Source of the DNA: a virus
Length of the DNA stretch: 35,588 nucleotides
Reading direction: 5' to 3' (one strand)
IMG/VR virus record: IMGVR_UViG_3300022540_000454
Location: 1 to 35,588 of that record
Shown here: one piece after another, positions 4,236 through 35,588 of the stretch
Position numbering within the stretch: the stretch's first letter is position 1
Layout: each line of letters starts with the position of its first letter
Made by a program: the position numbers and the translations under genes
Notes under the pieces: generated by a model
The model's input: the letters and a program-made list of their open reading frames with translations, nothing else
What the model was told of the DNA's origin: nothing
Databases searched by the model: none

Positions 4236-6224
4236 TTAATATGCAACTTCATAGCCTATAGCTCTTACAAGCATAGGTAATGGATTTTCTTGTGTTATCT
4301 CTAATTGTACTATTCTATCATATCCCAAGAGATATAACTCTTTAAAGCCTGTAAATGGTTCTGGTGCTTTGTCTAAAGCCACCGTGAATTTTCTATCTGA
4401 CGCGTAAATGTTCTTAACATATATTCCTAAACTCTCATATACATTAATATCTACTTTCACTATACGTTTTCTTCTATGTAACGTAGCACCATTTCTTAGC
4501 ATTGTATTTAGAGGCAGAGTAGTTATCTTAGTAGTATAGTCTAATCCGACTTCTAAACGATAGGCGTTTCTAGTTATAGTAAATTTATTATCGCCTGGTG
4601 ATGTAATTTCAGGAAGAGCATCTGGCATTATAGATAGATCCGCTATTACTTTAAAGTAAATAGTATCAAAAACAGGGTCAAAATCTGTGTCTATTTCTGT
4701 TATTGGTGTACCTGTGCTAAAATCTGTGTATATTACATTGTTTCCATCATAAATTACATTAAAATCATTATATATTACATTATCACAAGTTGGTTCTGTT
4801 CCTGTCGAAACTACATTATGATCAGTATAAGAGTCCTCATTTAATAATTCAATAAAATATTCACCCTCTCTTTTAACTAGAAAATAAACTGTCTTATCTA
4901 CTACGCAAACATCGAGAAATTCTCCGTCTGTAGTCCAGTGTGTCCATCCCAAAATACCTTCATTTCTCAGCGTATTCATTACTGCCAAAGTTCCGTCTGT
5001 GTTAACTACATAAACAAAATCAGATACATCTATGTCCGTACCTTTGATAACTGACAATGATTTAATGTCTGTCAAGAGATGCGAAGCTAAAAGTGTAATA
5101 TTATTAGAAACATGAGCATCCTCATTATAATTATAAATAAATTCTCTTATAGTTTTTTTTGAACTATCTACAAAGAGAGTCGCACCATCTATAAAGATAG
5201 GTCTTATGCCTTTTGAGCCGTGTCCTGTCTGAGCTTCCCATGCTGAATTAGCAGGAGTAATAATTTCAACTGAATTGACAAACTCTGCACCGGTTGTAAA
5301 TACCTGCAAACTCCTCCCACTAAAGATGTTTGTGATTTTATTATATTGTCCTGACTCTATTGTATCGGAGATAGCATGATCGTCTGGAATAGAACCACCT
5401 ATTTCATCTGCTGTAAAATCAAAATATCCATTTACTTTTGATCCCCAAACTGTAGTTGGCTTTGCTGTGCTTCCTCCGAACCAAAGTCTATTATTATGAA
5501 ATGTGCATGATATTGGATATCCTCTCGTAGCACTCCACGCAACCTCTGTTCTAGAGCCTGTGTAAGTCCAATTTGCTGTAACTCTATAATCTTCAATATC
5601 TAAATTTAAATCAATACTACTTCTCTCTAAAACTGACTCATAAAATCCGTATGATATCCCAATAGCTCTCTTTGAGTTTAAATATACTATATCACCTATT
5701 TGTAAAGTAACTATTTGTTCGCTATGCGTTGCTGTCAAATCATAAGCAACATTATCATAATTTATTCTAGGCATTGTTAGACTTATTGGAGATAAAGTCC
5801 AGTCTGCGTCCGTAGCACCTCTTACAAGTTTTCTGGGTGCATGATCTTCATGCGTGATGATAACTGTATCTGCTGACTGAATAATATCTAGCTCATCTAC
5901 TTCTGTGATAGTCGTGTATGGAGACACTATATCAGCCTTAACGATTACACCATCTCTTAACACGTCTATAAATCCTGCCCTGAATACTAAAAGATATTGC
6001 TGTGCTTTGTTGAACACAAAAGGACTTAATCTCGCATCTTCACCTACAACTCCATCCTCTATCTTGGAAAGTCCTGGTCTGCGTCTCAGTCCCCCCTGAG
6101 GAACTATAACGACATTTTCTGCATGAGCCACCGAAGTATTATATTTGTCTATGTCTATACGTGCATGAAGTTCTGGTGCAAGTTCTCCGCCTGTTAAATT
6201 AGATTGAATATGTTGTATTCCCAT
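4236..6224 (-). CDS. Tail tubular protein B (nozzle), T7 gp12-like
   Basis: At 662 residues it is somewhat shorter than T7 gp12 (about 790). The N-terminus holds the family signature: SNLTGGELAPELHARID, then a Tyr/Asn-rich stretch and GGLRRRPG at about residues 44-51. The rest is beta-rich, as expected for the propeller-like nozzle that forms the tail tip and anchors fibres. It starts two bases after the stop of tail tubular protein A and is followed by the gp14-like gene, the standard tail-to-ejection order. Confidence 0.88.
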   Translation of the reverse strand: MGIQHIQSNLTGGELAPELHARIDIDKYNTSVAHAENVVIVPQGGLRRRPGLSKIEDGVVGEDARLSPFVFNKAQQYLLVFRAGFIDVLRDGVIVKADIVSPYTTITEVDELDIIQSADTVIITHEDHAPRKLVRGATDADWTLSPISLTMPRINYDNVAYDLTATHSEQIVTLQIGDIVYLNSKRAIGISYGFYESVLERSSIDLNLDIEDYRVTANWTYTGSRTEVAWSATRGYPISCTFHNNRLWFGGSTAKPTTVWGSKVNGYFDFTADEIGGSIPDDHAISDTIESGQYNKITNIFSGRSLQVFTTGAEFVNSVEIITPANSAWEAQTGHGSKGIRPIFIDGATLFVDSSKKTIREFIYNYNEDAHVSNNITLLASHLLTDIKSLSVIKGTDIDVSDFVYVVNTDGTLAVMNTLRNEGILGWTHWTTDGEFLDVCVVDKTVYFLVKREGEYFIELLNEDSYTDHNVVSTGTEPTCDNVIYNDFNVIYDGNNVIYTDFSTGTPITEIDTDFDPVFDTIYFKVIADLSIMPDALPEITSPGDNKFTITRNAYRLEVGLDYTTKITTLPLNTMLRNGATLHRRKRIVKVDINVYESLGIYVKNIYASDRKFTVALDKAPEPFTGFKELYLLGYDRIVQLEITQENPLPMLVRAIGYEVAY

Positions 6225-21515: not shown

Positions 21516-21754
21516 TTCAATTCCCCAACTAATCTCTTCATCTCCAAAAAATCACAATCCTCTTTTTTGACTATTTCTCTAGTCTCATACATATCATCCT
21601 CTGAATAATGACCCCCCAAATATCCTGCTATTGCAGATTGCTTTAAAATTGGCAAAGAGTTATCAAAAACTACATAAAACTCATCATTGTGACAAATATA
21701 TCCTTTGTCCCCCAAAACAGTACCATTTCCATATTTTTTATGTTTTACTCTCAT
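21512..21754 (-). CDS. Small beta-barrel-like protein (KOW/tudor-like start)
   Basis: The 80-residue protein begins MRVKHKKYGNGTVLGDKGYI and continues with a strand pair FYVVFDNSLPIL. This resembles the small SH3-like barrels found at the C-termini of UvrD/PcrA helicases. The remainder is a charged helix. It overlaps the methyltransferase gene and the gene upstream by four bases. Function is unknown; nucleic-acid or protein binding is possible. Confidence 0.5.
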   Translation of the reverse strand: MRVKHKKYGNGTVLGDKGYICHNDEFYVVFDNSLPILKQSAIAGYLGGHYSEDDMYETREIVKKEDCDFLEMKRLVGELK

Positions 21755-22302
21755 CTCACACCTCCTATTAATCTCTTCATGCGTTGCTGTCCTGATGTTA
21801 AGGACTCGTATTTTGATTTTGTTATATACTTGCTCAAAAATAATTCAATCAAATTATCCTCTAATTTGTGCTGTTCACTAAGTTCGATTATCACACTTGA
21901 CCTCCCAAGTCCCGAAAGTGCTTTGATCTCTTTATCCGTAAAAAACTTATGTCCATCTACAGTCAAAGATGAAAACGGTCTTTCACTCCCAAGCTCGATT
22001 TGGTTTTTGATGTACGTCCTGGCTTGTTCGACTTTGTGCGTGAGTTGCTTTGAGAAGTTCATCGCTGTTTTGTGTGGCAACTTGGCTTTCTCTTGGAGTT
22101 TTTTATACATTCGTGACAAAGTCATTAAGCGTTCTGGTTTCTCGTCTTTCCCATATGTTGTGATGCTGTCCTTTTTATCTGCCAAGAACTGATAAAAGGC
22201 TTCTGTGTTCTCTATACCGTGTAAGGCTTCGGTTATTGCTACTCCATGTTGAGCCGACTTAGTATCTAAGCCCATAAGGTTAGCTATTCTCAATGGTAAC
22301 AT
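21751..22302 (-). CDS. Hypothetical helical protein of the replication region
   Basis: The 183-residue protein is soluble, basic and helical, with stretches such as MTLSRMYKKLQEKAKL and VEQARTYIKNQIELGS. A possible HTH lies near residues 125-145 (FTDKEIKALSGLGRSSVIIE). It overlaps the replication-like gene upstream by 23 bases. Position suggests a role in replication or its control. I do not recognise a family. Confidence 0.5.
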   Translation of the reverse strand: MLPLRIANLMGLDTKSAQHGVAITEALHGIENTEAFYQFLADKKDSITTYGKDEKPERLMTLSRMYKKLQEKAKLPHKTAMNFSKQLTHKVEQARTYIKNQIELGSERPFSSLTVDGHKFFTDKEIKALSGLGRSSVIIELSEQHKLEDNLIELFLSKYITKSKYESLTSGQQRMKRLIGGVR

Positions 22303-22573
22303 CTATCACTTCCCTTTGTTGTTGCATTTGCCATTCAATAGAACCAACTTCTGCTTCTTTTTGTGGATAACATCTTGCTTTTTTAGCAAATAATCCTTGC
22401 CACCCATTAAGTATAGAAGTTTCTATTATCTCTATATGGTTTTCTTTGTGTTGCTCTAAAAGTTTCAACTGCCTTTTAATTGTTGTAGGCTTCAAGGGCT
22501 TTCTTAGTTCTTTGCGAAACTGTACCCATTCTGCCCAGGCTTCTTTGTTTAACCATTGTGGTAAATTTTTCAT
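22280..22573 (-). CDS. Replication-protein C-terminal-like fragment (stand-alone)
   Basis: The 97 residues match the C-terminal module of many phage replication (O/DnaT-like) proteins: LPQWLNKEAWAEWVQFRKEL, a basic LKPTTIKRQLKLL and a conserved ILNGWQGLFAKK. The N-terminal winged-helix or DUF domain usual in full-length proteins is absent, so it is either a minimal form or a split gene. It could load a host helicase. It lies between the Lar-like gene and the helical gene. Confidence 0.6.
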   Translation of the reverse strand: MKNLPQWLNKEAWAEWVQFRKELRKPLKPTTIKRQLKLLEQHKENHIEIIETSILNGWQGLFAKKARCYPQKEAEVGSIEWQMQQQREVIDVTIENS

Positions 22574-22806
22574 CCTTCAGCCTTTTCACGTTTATTCCAC
22601 AGTTTTGCCATAACTTTTTCAAGAAAATAGAAATTGTGAAGCTTTGACGCGTCAACACGCTTAATTCTACAGTTAGGACATTTTATTTCTATTTTTCTGT
22701 TTTTAGTGTAATCATTTCCTATATATTTAATAATAGGAAAGTGTCCACAAAAAGGACAGCTCAACAGTTTTATTTCGTCAATACCATTATATGATTTATA
22801 TTTCAT
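22570..22806 (-). CDS. Lar-like restriction alleviation protein (zinc ribbon)
   Basis: The 78-residue protein has the family's LLSCPFCGHFPIIKYIGND, then IKCPNCRIKR and a C-terminal ..AKLWNKRE (usually W N R R). The four cysteines form a zinc ribbon. In Rac-type prophages Lar modulates type I restriction. Here it lies upstream of the methyltransferase, so the pair may jointly counter restriction. The biochemical role of most homologues is untested. Confidence 0.7.
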   Translation of the reverse strand: MKYKSYNGIDEIKLLSCPFCGHFPIIKYIGNDYTKNRKIEIKCPNCRIKRVDASKLHNFYFLEKVMAKLWNKREKAEG

Positions 22807-22807
22807 A

Positions 22808-22939
22808 TTACACCATCCCTTTTAAAAAAATAACATCTATTCCTGATATTGGTATATTGTTACTATTTCTATTTAAGTTCAAATCTATTTTTTTAGCTTT
22901 CAAAATTCGTTTTAATCTTTTTATTTGTTTCCGTGTCAA
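22808..22939 (-). CDS. 43-residue basic protein with TTG start
   Basis: A TTG at 22939 preceded by AAAGGATACAAC, the same ribosome-site module used elsewhere in this phage, opens a 43-codon frame ending TAA at 22808, one base before the Lar gene. The N-terminal half is a basic helix (LTRKQIKRLKRILKAKKIDL). It is the first frame after the large structured RNA. The weak start codon makes it tentative. Confidence 0.45.
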   Translation of the reverse strand: MTRKQIKRLKRILKAKKIDLNLNRNSNNIPISGIDVIFLKGMV

Positions 22940-22965
22940 GTTGTATCCTTTGAGGTTTTAGTTTA

Positions 22966-23409
22966 GGTTAGTTTTTGACAGTATTCGCCCTTTTACAGGT
23001 GAACACTTGTCTTTATCCTCAGATGTATAGAAAGGAAGTAAAGGCAGTCAAACTAACCATTTAACAGGGTTAACTTAAATCATAATAACTTAGATGGGCG
23101 GTCTCTTTGACCCACCTTGCTAGGGCTTCTAGCTATGATTATTCGCACATTGACGGCGTATGTCCTCAACTTATGCTAAGGGTTAAATACTCTATTTTCT
23201 GCTTGGCTCGGTTTACATTCCCTTGAGCTTAAAGGGTAGAGGCTGAATTTGGTTAAGGCAGTTAGCTTCTGCTCGCTACAGAACAATGATAATATTTAAA
23301 GGGGGATTTCTAATCTAAGAAGATGATACTCGCAATAACATCTTTCTTAATATCCTTAAACCTAACCGAAATTAGGTGATGCTACTGCGAGTAGGTTTAA
23401 AGATACTTA
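22966..23409 (-). ncRNA. Large structured RNA of unknown class
   Basis: No reading frame fits this stretch. In the minus transcript these helices are visible: 23392-23400/23356-23364 (9 bp), 23339-23348/23317-23325 (9 bp, one bulge), 23279-23283/23267-23271, 23032-23036-type AAGGG hairpin at 23220-23236, 23134-23140/23078-23084 closing a three-way junction with hairpins 23119-23133 and 23093-23116, 23061-23073, and 23047-23058/22966-22979 (12 bp) enclosing 23038-23045/22987-22996. Loop bases 23386-23393 (TACTCGCA on the transcript) pair with loop 23327-23334 (TGCGAGTA), a kissing interaction. The complexity recalls phage-borne ornate RNAs such as GOLLD or ROOL, but I cannot match it to one. 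Confidence 0.65.
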
Positions 23410-23415
23410 TTCGTA

Positions 23416-23424
23416 AGTATAGCA
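23416..23424 (-). promoter_or_regulatory. Promoter of the large structured RNA
   Basis: The minus strand reads TGCTATACT, an extended -10, with a TTGCTT -35 at 23444-23439 separated by exactly 17 bases. Transcription would begin near 23409, at the edge of the first helices. It is the only candidate here with both elements at ideal spacing, suggesting strong, separate expression. Confidence 0.6.
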
Positions 23425-23465
23425 AACCCCGACTTAAAAAGCAAGGGTTTTAATTGGTGTCAAGT

Positions 23466-23720
23466 TTATTCCTCTAGTTTAATTACTTCCGTTAGATCAT
23501 CAAGTAGTTTTGCTGTTCTTTTTTTTGATGCAAGATATTTATTTTCAATGTGCTTGACTGCATATTCCTTGGCTTCGTCAAAAGTATCAAATGCAGCAGA
23601 GTATTCAGTTCTTTTAGCATTTCTGTTCCCATTGATCCAATAGCTCTTTTCCGTTTCTTTTTCTATTTCTATCTTTTCTATTTTGTAATTAGAAAAAAGA
23701 ATAACTGTATATTTTATCAT
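23466..23720 (-). CDS. Hypothetical 84-residue protein
   Basis: The start is ATG 23720, which has AAGGAGAAGTA upstream and overlaps the previous stop; an earlier in-frame ATG would run over the 27-residue gene. The product has a beta pair (YTVILFSNYKIEKIEIE) and a helix with FDTFDEAKEYAVKHIENKY, a pattern seen in small phage proteins of unknown role. It is the last gene before the structured-RNA region. Confidence 0.55.
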   Translation of the reverse strand: MIKYTVILFSNYKIEKIEIEKETEKSYWINGNRNAKRTEYSAAFDTFDEAKEYAVKHIENKYLASKKRTAKLLDDLTEVIKLEE

Positions 23721-24634: not shown

Positions 24635-25056
24635 TTGTTATCCTTGTGTATTCCTATTACTTCAACTTCTGCTTCAAGACTAAGAGTGTCTAATGCATTC
24701 TCACCATCAAGATCTATAAATTTGCTGCGTTCTTGCTTTTTATCAAATACTGCAACATATTTTAAATCTTTATATTTAACAATGCAACCACCTATCCAAT
24801 ATTCTGAAAAGGAAAAGAATATTGGCTTATTATTTTTATCTTTTTTGTCAAAATAGATTGCCAGGGTTGATGGGTCTATATTGCTCCATTTTTTATCAGA
24901 TATTATCCACATACTTAATACATCTTCAATATCTGTTTTTACCCATTCCTCGTTAGATGTTTCTTTTAGGTCATATTCTGTATCTGGTAGTATATATCCT
25001 TCTATCCACTCATCACTATCTATCTTCTTTGCTCTATATTCTGGTATTTGTGTCAT
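24631..25056 (-). CDS. YopX-family phage protein
   Basis: The 141-residue protein matches the YopX pattern: EYRAKKIDSDEWIEGYILPD at the N-terminus, a middle IDPSTLAIYFDKKDKNNKPI (usually TGLKDKNGK.IFEGD), GGCIVKYKDLKYVAVFD and a C-terminal VEVIGIHKDN. YopX proteins are common in early operons of phages and prophages; their function is not known. It is the largest gene in this run of tiny genes. Confidence 0.75.
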   Translation of the reverse strand: MTQIPEYRAKKIDSDEWIEGYILPDTEYDLKETSNEEWVKTDIEDVLSMWIISDKKWSNIDPSTLAIYFDKKDKNNKPIFFSFSEYWIGGCIVKYKDLKYVAVFDKKQERSKFIDLDGENALDTLSLEAEVEVIGIHKDNK

Positions 25057-33871: not shown

Positions 33872-35588
33872 TAGATATAATCCTTCATGTATTTAATTAC
33901 TATTTCTTTCATCTTTTCTGATGTAAATGCTTTACCTGCTATATGAACTCCTGCCGCTCCTAATGCTCCTTTGGCTATATTATAAGTCCAATATCCTTCT
34001 TCATCTTGTTCAAAGCCATATAGTGCTCCAACTGTTTCGGGTTTCACAAAAGGTATGATTTTGTCTAGCGTCTTTTTGTCTATTCGTGTCATAACTTCGG
34101 TTTGCTCTTCTAGTGATAAAACTTGGAAATCTTCTATTTTATTTGTTGATTTCTTTATATCCTCTGTTACTTTAAGCATATCTGCTTCATACTTCGCATC
34201 TATTCTTGCTAATTCTGCTTTGGTCATTCCTTTGTATTCTTTATCTTTTAAAATTCTCTTCTTTTGGACTTTCATTTTTTCTCGTATGATATCCTCGTCT
34301 GCTCCAAATTCTTTTTCAAGTTGTTCTCTTTTTGCTGCTATTCTTGCTTTTGCTGCTTCGCTTTTCTTGCTTATAGTTGGTGCTATCTCTGATGCTTCTT
34401 CTAGTTTATTAAATTCTATAGTATCTAGTTCTTCTTGTTTGAGAAATTGTTGTTCCATTTCTGGTGTTATTTCCTCATCTATGATGATTTTTTCTTTTAC
34501 TTCTTTAGGCGTTGGTACTTCTGCTTCTATTGGTGGTCTTGCCTCCGTTGGCACTCCCTCTTCTGTAAATCTCTTAGCTGAATAAAATCTATCTATATAT
34601 GAAGGGCTTAATTCTTCTGTGACTGTTCCATACTTTTTACCTTTAGCGTGAGTCATTATATACTTGCCGTCTCTTATAGCTGTAATAATTCCCGTATGTG
34701 TAACAGGTGCATACTTTTTACCTATTTGACTTGGCTTAAAGTAGATTGTATCACCTATTTGCATATCATCAAAGGCTATATTTTTGCCTTGGCTTCCTTT
34801 GGCTTGACCCCATGCAGTCCTTGGGAGATTAATCCCTTGTTCTTTATGGATTGATTGAACAAGCCCCGAACAGTCTGCACCCGTTTTAAGATCTGTTCCG
34901 CCCCATACATATTTGTTACCTTGTAAGACTTGGGCTCTTTCAACTATATTACCAACTGTAGCAGTTATCTCTGGTGTTGGCATTATCGGTTCTTTTATAG
35001 GTTGTGCGATTTCTATATCATTTGCTTTAAATTCTGCGATTTCTTCTGGGGAGAGACGCTCTAAAATAAGTGCATCTCCTTCTTCTTTAGTTGCCATACC
35101 ATCGTATTTATCTATCTCATCTGTTATCTCTTTTGGTTTGATATCGTCTGCTTGTGCAAAACTTTCTTCAAACTCTTTGACTTCAATTTCGTAGCCATTA
35201 TCTACATCTCTTTTGGCAAGTTCATCTCTGAGGCTTATTTCTTCTATATCTGGATTGGTTTTAGTGTTTATATCGATGTCTGTTGCGTCTGCTATGTCAA
35301 CGGGTCTGCCATTGTCCATATCTTCCCGGGCTTTAGCTATTAAGGATAAATGTTTATTGGTATCCTGTGTTAGTTTATATTCTTCTCTTTGAAAGAAACG
35401 ATTTACTATTTCTTTGTCTAGTGGGTTTTTGACATCTTTGTTTATTTGTTTAAGCATTTTGTTTTTTGCTATTTTATCTATTGTTCCACTTCCTATCGCT
35501 CTGAAAGTTCCTCCTAGCCCTGCACCTAATAAAATTTGAGATACGCTATCCCATAAAGTATAGTCTAAATCAGCTTTTTCCATGTGCT
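33871..35588 (-). CDS. Internal virion (ejection) protein with NlpC/P60 peptidase, second copy of partial gene
   Basis: This is the 3' portion of the gene also found at 1-1717; bases 34521-35588 repeat 1-1068. It is open to the window end, and the true start lies at 1717 on the closed circle (218 further residues upstream of the internal Met at 35583). The NlpC/P60 domain lies near 34560-34960, with Cys in ADCSGLV and His in THTGI. The C-terminal region is a long charged helical segment, ending in a hydrophobic patch (AKGALGAAGVHIAGKAF). The stop overlaps the next ATG. Confidence 0.88.
   Translation of the reverse strand, partial: HMEKADLDYTLWDSVSQILLGAGLGGTFRAIGSGTIDKIAKNKMLKQINKDVKNPLDKEIVNRFFQREEYKLTQDTNKHLSLIAKAREDMDNGRPVDIADATDIDINTKTNPDIEEISLRDELAKRDVDNGYEIEVKEFEESFAQADDIKPKEITDEIDKYDGMATKEEGDALILERLSPEEIAEFKANDIEIAQPIKEPIMPTPEITATVGNIVERAQVLQGNKYVWGGTDLKTGADCSGLVQSIHKEQGINLPRTAWGQAKGSQGKNIAFDDMQIGDTIYFKPSQIGKKYAPVTHTGIITAIRDGKYIMTHAKGKKYGTVTEELSPSYIDRFYSAKRFTEEGVPTEARPPIEAEVPTPKEVKEKIIIDEEITPEMEQQFLKQEELDTIEFNKLEEASEIAPTISKKSEAAKARIAAKREQLEKEFGADEDIIREKMKVQKKRILKDKEYKGMTKAELARIDAKYEADMLKVTEDIKKSTNKIEDFQVLSLEEQTEVMTRIDKKTLDKIIPFVKPETVGALYGFEQDEEGYWTYNIAKGALGAAGVHIAGKAFTSEKMKEIVIKYMKDYI
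34521..35588. repeat. Right copy of 1068-bp terminal direct repeat
   Basis: This stretch is identical to 1-1068. See the left copy. Unique genome length would be 34520 bases. Confidence 0.95.

Follow-up and report, generated by a model that had tools for sequence, protein, structure and literature searches.

A conserved structured RNA with two competing 5′ folds at the head of a phage replication operon

What is encoded in the ∼445 gene-free bases that precede the replication genes of this phage, and what might the product do there? The window, by which we mean the whole stretch of 35,588 nt analysed here, is a virus record with an exact terminal direct repeat of 1,068 bp (1–1068 and 34521–35588), which suggests that the genome of ∼34,520 bp is probably circular/closed or permuted. 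It encodes tailed-phage proteins, among them a head-tail adaptor/portal-type protein and NinG, Erf, SSB and O-like functions. Neither a tyrosine integrase (PF00589) nor a ParA-type protein (PF13614) was matched in the window or in the related phages G001, G002, G014, G015, and G016, even though the window carries NinG/Erf/repressor-like genes. An earlier note, made from the letters alone, had proposed a large structured RNA with its own promoter on the minus strand of the gene-free region.

Promoter, homologues and overall fold

The structured RNA extends over 22966–23412 on the minus strand (∼447 nt), with its predicted 5′ end at GAAUAAG (23412). The promoter (23416–23444, minus strand) is as the earlier note had described it, with TTGCTT at 23444–23439, a spacing of 17 nt and the extended -10 TGC-TATACT at 23424–23416. 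The -10 with its TG is also present in the homologous loci L002 (TATGGTACAAT), L052 (TATGGTATAAT), and L053 (TATGATATAAT), as well as in L114 (TATGGTATACT), which belongs to a sister phage that lacks the RNA, while the -35 is not kept in these. In each of the five phages examined, the RNA-less L114 included, a GAATA start follows three bases past the extended -10, and conservation sets in where the transcript is predicted to begin (23412).

Relatives were collected via the O-like protein encoded downstream of the RNA. The same non-coding stretch was found in three other phage contig sets, namely G014 (L002 4930–5388), G015 (L052 11684–12025 plus L004 1–113), and G016 (L053 304–1 plus L003 1–152). 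The last two sequences were joined across contig ends, as the contigs break inside the RNA; near-identical copies within one metagenome probably confuse the assembly at these breaks. Identity between the window and the homologues is 71% in the first 141 nt and 53% along the full alignment (249/467 columns), while the RNAs of G014, G015, and G016 are 95–96% identical to one another. The sample thus consists of four sequences but effectively two diverged lineages. Scanning viral contigs for exact motifs (AAGCAGAAAATAGAGT; GAATAAGTATCTTTNAAC; three gapped patterns) led back only to the three homologous contigs already named; all further matches lacked the remaining blocks and lay mostly in coding-like sequence. 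A gapped pattern gave 23 matches in genome_contigs, all judged to be chance. Phage and plasmid records held no DNA match beyond short chance ones, and the further phages fetched by TerL were sisters without the RNA. In G015 the 3′-terminal 37 nt of the unit (L004 77–113) recur exactly at L052 10849–10885, ∼0.8 kb upstream, where they form the end of a short ORF; this could be a recombination joint between gene cassettes.

The minus strand of 22807–23465 contains no ORF of at least 45 aa, and a six-frame comparison across the RNA gave only weak, stop-interrupted matches. No match to Rfam 15 at the gathering threshold (including GOLLD, ROOL, OLE, introns, and RNase P) was obtained for the window, L002, L052, or L114, and an E-value search of 22800–23600 gave matches only far under threshold, none of them credible. 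These searches support the view, raised as a possibility in the earlier note, that the RNA family is undescribed as far as Rfam 15 goes.

Folding of the minus strand of 22950–23440 gave -127.2 kcal/mol vs. -102.7 kcal/mol for dinucleotide shuffles (z -3.8, 0/100). RNAalifold on the MAFFT alignment, compared with column shuffles, reached z -3.7 for the four sequences and -5.1 for the pair (0/100). Outside the 5′ hairpins P1/P2 described below, MAFFT aligned the diverged halves too poorly for a covariance model. Structural alignment of the window with L002 scored 210.7 against 152±13 for shuffled sequences (z 4.4, 0/120), with 100 shared pairs. Sixteen helices hold at least three shared pairs, nearly all of them with two-sided changes; summed over the whole structural alignment, the count of such changes is reached by 11 of 120 shuffles and was therefore not used as proof.

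The three-way junction (23078–23140, minus strand) folds as stated in the earlier note, with a closing helix at 23139–23135/23083–23079 and hairpins at 23133–23119 and 23117–23092 (z -3.1 in the window). Two-sided changes separate L002 from the window in 10 of its 18 shared pairs and in all three helices. The long closing helix that had been placed at 23047–23058/22966–22979 shrinks to UUGAC/GUCAA at 23051–23047/22979–22975, with five shared pairs, three of them two-sided changed, rather than 12. It closes a 3′ domain (22975–23051, minus strand) with hairpins at 23043–23011 and 23005–22982, in which 11 of 19 shared pairs are two-sided changed between the window and L002 (z -3.7 in the window). 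Further towards the 5′ end, a CCCUU(U).../AAGGG hairpin (23220–23236, minus strand) is replaced by GUUUGG/CCAAAC in L002 (six shared pairs, four with two-sided changes). The RNA also contains conserved minus-strand blocks. The 16-nt block AAGCAGAAAAUAGAGU (23189–23204) is identical in all four homologues and predicted to be mostly unpaired, AUCCCCCUUUA (23297–23307) is shared by the window, L002 and L052, with a single base change and an insertion in L053, and UUAUCAUUGU (23283–23292) is shared by the window and L002, with L052 (AUAUCAUUGU) and L053 (UUAUCACUGU) one base off.

Inverted repeats fold on either strand, and the complement strand also beats its shuffles (z -2.6 to -3.1). The palindromes might therefore act as double- or single-stranded DNA, for example as an origin structure or primosome assembly site, with the transcript being incidental. 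We regard this as very unlikely. Folding is stronger on the RNA strand (z -4.8 vs. -2.6 in the pair, and -3.8 vs. only -1.7 in the window alone), the shared structure contains 12 G-U pairs in the window, and conservation sets in at the predicted start of the transcript.

Competing hairpins in the 5′ domain

The 5′ domain can fold in two ways on the minus strand. In the first, hairpin P1 encloses P2 (23328–23392); P1 pairs 23392–23378 with 23342–23328 over 15 bp, and P2 pairs 23377–23371 with 23366–23360. The loop-loop pairing of 23386–23393 with 23327–23334 that the earlier note had proposed did not hold up, since these bases form the nested foot of P1 with P2 inside. The alternative is an early-forming hairpin, P0 (23350–23406), which had been absent from that description and in which 23406–23392 pairs with 23364–23350 over 15 bp. 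As P0 uses bases of P1 as well as of P2, it excludes the full P1/P2 fold.

All 22 pairs of P1/P2 form in all four sequences and 10 of them show two-sided changes, a result reached by none of 500 shuffles; one pair has a two-sided change also within the L002/L052/L053 group. Folded alone, P1/P2 gave z -7.75 in the window and -5.3 in L002. P0 is likewise 100% paired in the four sequences, while slid controls were all at most 53% paired, and the first 66 nt alone gave z -5.6 in the window and -4.65 in L002. Its two two-sided changes are matched by 36 of 500 shuffles, and covariation-type support is weaker for P0 than for P1.

The two folds are close in predicted energy, as forcing P0 in the 5′ domain costs 0–1.4 kcal/mol relative to the free optimum. 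P0 reaches -28.7 vs. -29.5 kcal/mol for the optimum in the window and -23.6 vs. -25.0 kcal/mol in L052, and in L002 the optimum is P0 itself (-27.4 kcal/mol). When the growing chain was modelled by simple truncation, not by kinetic simulation, P0 was able to form ∼20 nt earlier in transcription, with ∼60 nt made vs. ∼85 nt for P1 and P2 together. Computation thus shows the first 85 nt, as modelled, to be a conserved bistable switch with two mutually exclusive folds of near-equal predicted energy.

These results bear on whether the pairing is merely the functionless, chance folding of a spacer. The values for L002 would fit such a spacer, being only z -1.1 for the three-way junction, -1.5 for the 3′ domain, and -1.4 for the whole RNA folded alone. 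Yet the RNAalifold result and the structural alignment were equalled by 0/100 and 0/120 shuffles, and the two-sided changes in 10/22 pairs of P1/P2 by 0/500. Chance folding is already refuted for the 5′ domain and can hardly be credited for the RNA as a whole. Homologues, covariation and shuffles thus agree with the large structured RNA of the earlier note, with covarying pairs found at a conserved position and no ORF conserved at the protein level.

The replication operon in RNA-bearing and RNA-less phages

Directly after the RNA, and also on the minus strand, comes a small ORF of 43 aa behind AAAGGA (22808–22939), followed by a Lar-like restriction-alleviation protein (22570–22806; PF14354, 34.9 bits, over cut-off). 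Next is a free C-terminal domain of an O-like initiator (22280–22573), which has 97 aa, lacks the N-terminal HTH and matches positions 218–285 of 346 in phrog_678. A conserved gene of unknown function (21751–22302) comes after it and is 73–77% identical in G014, G016, and the RNA-less G001. The operon thus runs from the RNA through small ORFs, the free O C-domain and the conserved unknown gene to SSB. Computation shows, within these sequence comparisons, a conserved structured RNA of ∼447 nt with a conserved predicted promoter at its 5′ end. No terminator-like site was found on the minus strand within or directly after the RNA, and its 3′ end is thus undefined by a terminator.

The closest sister, G001 (locus L114; TerL 92%), has no such RNA. 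In its slot the same -10/start sequence (TATACTTACGAATA) drives a full O of 210 aa with HTH_36, three 22-nt in-gene iterons and the C-domain. L114 and L002 share the gene that precedes the slot (MSQSQN…), and the slot in L114 is followed by one extra ORF and then the homologue of 21751–22302. The 22-nt iterons inside full-length O genes (L114 2700–2765; L161 1789–1846) correspond to a classical lambda-type origin. All four RNA phages, in contrast, carry the O C-domain only, with 95–97 aa and a longer tail in L004. HTH_36 over cut-off is absent from the four genomes, and repeat finders, which could miss degenerate or dispersed repeats, gave neither repeats in the O gene nor an iteron-like array in the 1.5 kb upstream, apart from one two-copy 11-mer in L004. 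The same distinction was seen among O relatives, as most full-length genes hold in-gene repeats and the free-domain genes hold none.

The RNA phages are otherwise diverse. G015 has a TerL 47% identical to that of the window and G016 a portal 42% identical but no TerL match; their structural genes fall into three kinds or more, and the O C-domain is among the few genes common to all four. As the RNA stays 95–96% identical across differing structural genes, it belongs to, and travels with, the replication module.

The explanation we favour, tentative but quite possible, is that the RNA is a cis-acting leader or origin RNA of the replication module, standing in for the iteron-plus-HTH half of a lambda-type O origin. 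The swap in the sister, where the same promoter serves a full HTH/iteron O, counts for this reading. In sequence terms a noncoding transcript from its own putative promoter takes the place of a protein initiator, as in RNA-based origins, while the HTH O with in-gene iterons of lambda-type origins is missing from the RNA phages. On this view the transcript would serve to mark or open the origin, as an R-loop or primer (cf. ColE1 RNA II and the RNA-based origins of mycobacteriophages), with the free O C-domain helping to recruit the host helicase. P0 would form first, with ∼60 nt made, and be replaced by P1 and P2 at ∼85 nt; this switch might decide the replication competence of the nascent transcript and thereby provide timing or copy control. 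Against an origin count the two lineages, the absence of a consensus promoter on the plus strand in or near 23328–23412, opposite the 5′ domain, and the absence of a DnaA-box cluster. Two perfect DnaA boxes (TTATCCACA) at 22362–22370 and 24903–24911, one on each strand, bracket the RNA in a span of 2.6 kb; they may be there by chance.

The free O C-domain also occurs without the RNA in four other phages (L013, L018, L019, and L021). The domain hence does not require the RNA, which would be one solution among several. The gaps before these other free domains follow no general rule (z -2.9 in L018, -0.9 in L021, 0.25 in L013). In L018 the 240-nt structured gap (4950–5190) is unrelated in sequence to the RNA.

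The main rival is that the RNA is a regulatory 5′ leader, not part of an origin, which tunes transcription of the replication operon by antitermination that modifies RNA polymerase in the manner of HK022 put, by pausing or by Rho/protein-responsive control. It lies between the operon promoter and the first gene with no strong terminator after it, and the first downstream ORF is a different one in each relative, which fits operon-wide action. Moreover, the RNA-less L114 has a structured leader of 157 nt before its O gene at the same promoter (2289–2445, z -3.25), in which a hairpin predicted to form early competes with a three-way junction that can form later, although this leader resembles the RNA in the start sequence only; G002, a sister with an HTH_36 O and 22-nt iterons, is without such a leader. 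A switching leader therefore need not mean an RNA origin, as L114 has a full O as well, and this keeps the leader rival strong. On the other hand, no U-run follows P0 or P1, so that there is no classical attenuator, and the lack of a terminator together with the varying ORF fits neither an intrinsic attenuator nor a riboswitch platform. The ∼447 nt far exceed the ∼70 nt of put RNA (PMC9378689), and a leader leaves the replacement of the HTH/iteron half of O unexplained. We consider a leader a real possibility, if a somewhat doubtful one. Even as a mere leader, the RNA would represent an undescribed family in which two conserved folds exclude each other.

A trans-acting noncoding RNA (for host take-over, as a decoy, in anti-defence or as an ornate scaffold) that sits in the replication operon by chance would agree with the several structured domains, the invariant unpaired 16-mer and the 95–96% identity across otherwise different phages. 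Its unchanged slot across the four phages, the absence of a terminator setting the 3′ end, and the lack of an Rfam relative all speak against it, and we judge it clearly improbable.

Returning to the origin reading, its fullest form would be a new origin class in which a large bistable RNA replaces the DNA-binding half of a lambda-type initiator and its iterons, works with the orphaned, helicase-recruiting O C-domain and licenses initiation through the P0-to-P1 switch. This we place on the unlikely side. If true, it would extend RNA-directed replication to lambda-like modules and tie it to a co-transcriptional switch. The apparent swap of a classical protein/iteron origin for an RNA among closely related phages, with the initiator cut to its C-domain, makes for a testable case.

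Comparison with known systems

GOLLD and ROOL are large structured phage RNAs that form homo-oligomeric RNA cages. They often occur near tRNA islands (PMC12286853), while ARAGORN found no tRNA or tmRNA gene in the window. The likeness suggested in the earlier note goes no further than being a large structured RNA in a phage, as the window RNA, at ∼450 nt, is smaller than GOLLD, is unmatched by the Rfam models, has no kissing loop and lies in a replication operon. HK022 put, too, is structured and lies at the beginning of a phage transcript, but it consists of two stem-loops in ∼70 nt (PMC9378689) as opposed to ∼447 nt with a bistable 5′ domain. The lambda-type O/iteron origin shares slot and promoter through the sister phage, and the O C-terminal domain is kept in the RNA phages, where the HTH domain and in-gene iterons were not found.

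The ColE1 RNA II primer is several hundred nt long, has its own promoter and alternative 5′ folds, and lies before the replication region. The window RNA is similar in size, predicted promoter, alternative 5′ folds and placement; it differs in that no promoter for an antisense RNA I was found, in having no Rfam match and in the presence of an initiator fragment. In the cluster A mycobacteriophages RedRock, Alma, and LadyBird, prophage origins are RNA-based, and mycobacteriophage prophages carry an HTH RepA in some cases and an ncRNA origin of ∼600 bp in others (PMC7157519). The RNA-based origins are associated with parABS and are required for maintaining the prophage but not for lytic growth, whereas the window RNA lies in a replication operon beside an O C-domain, with no ParA-type or integrase gene found. 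Common to both is an ncRNA-expressing region of ∼400–600 bp at the place where sister phages have an HTH initiator.
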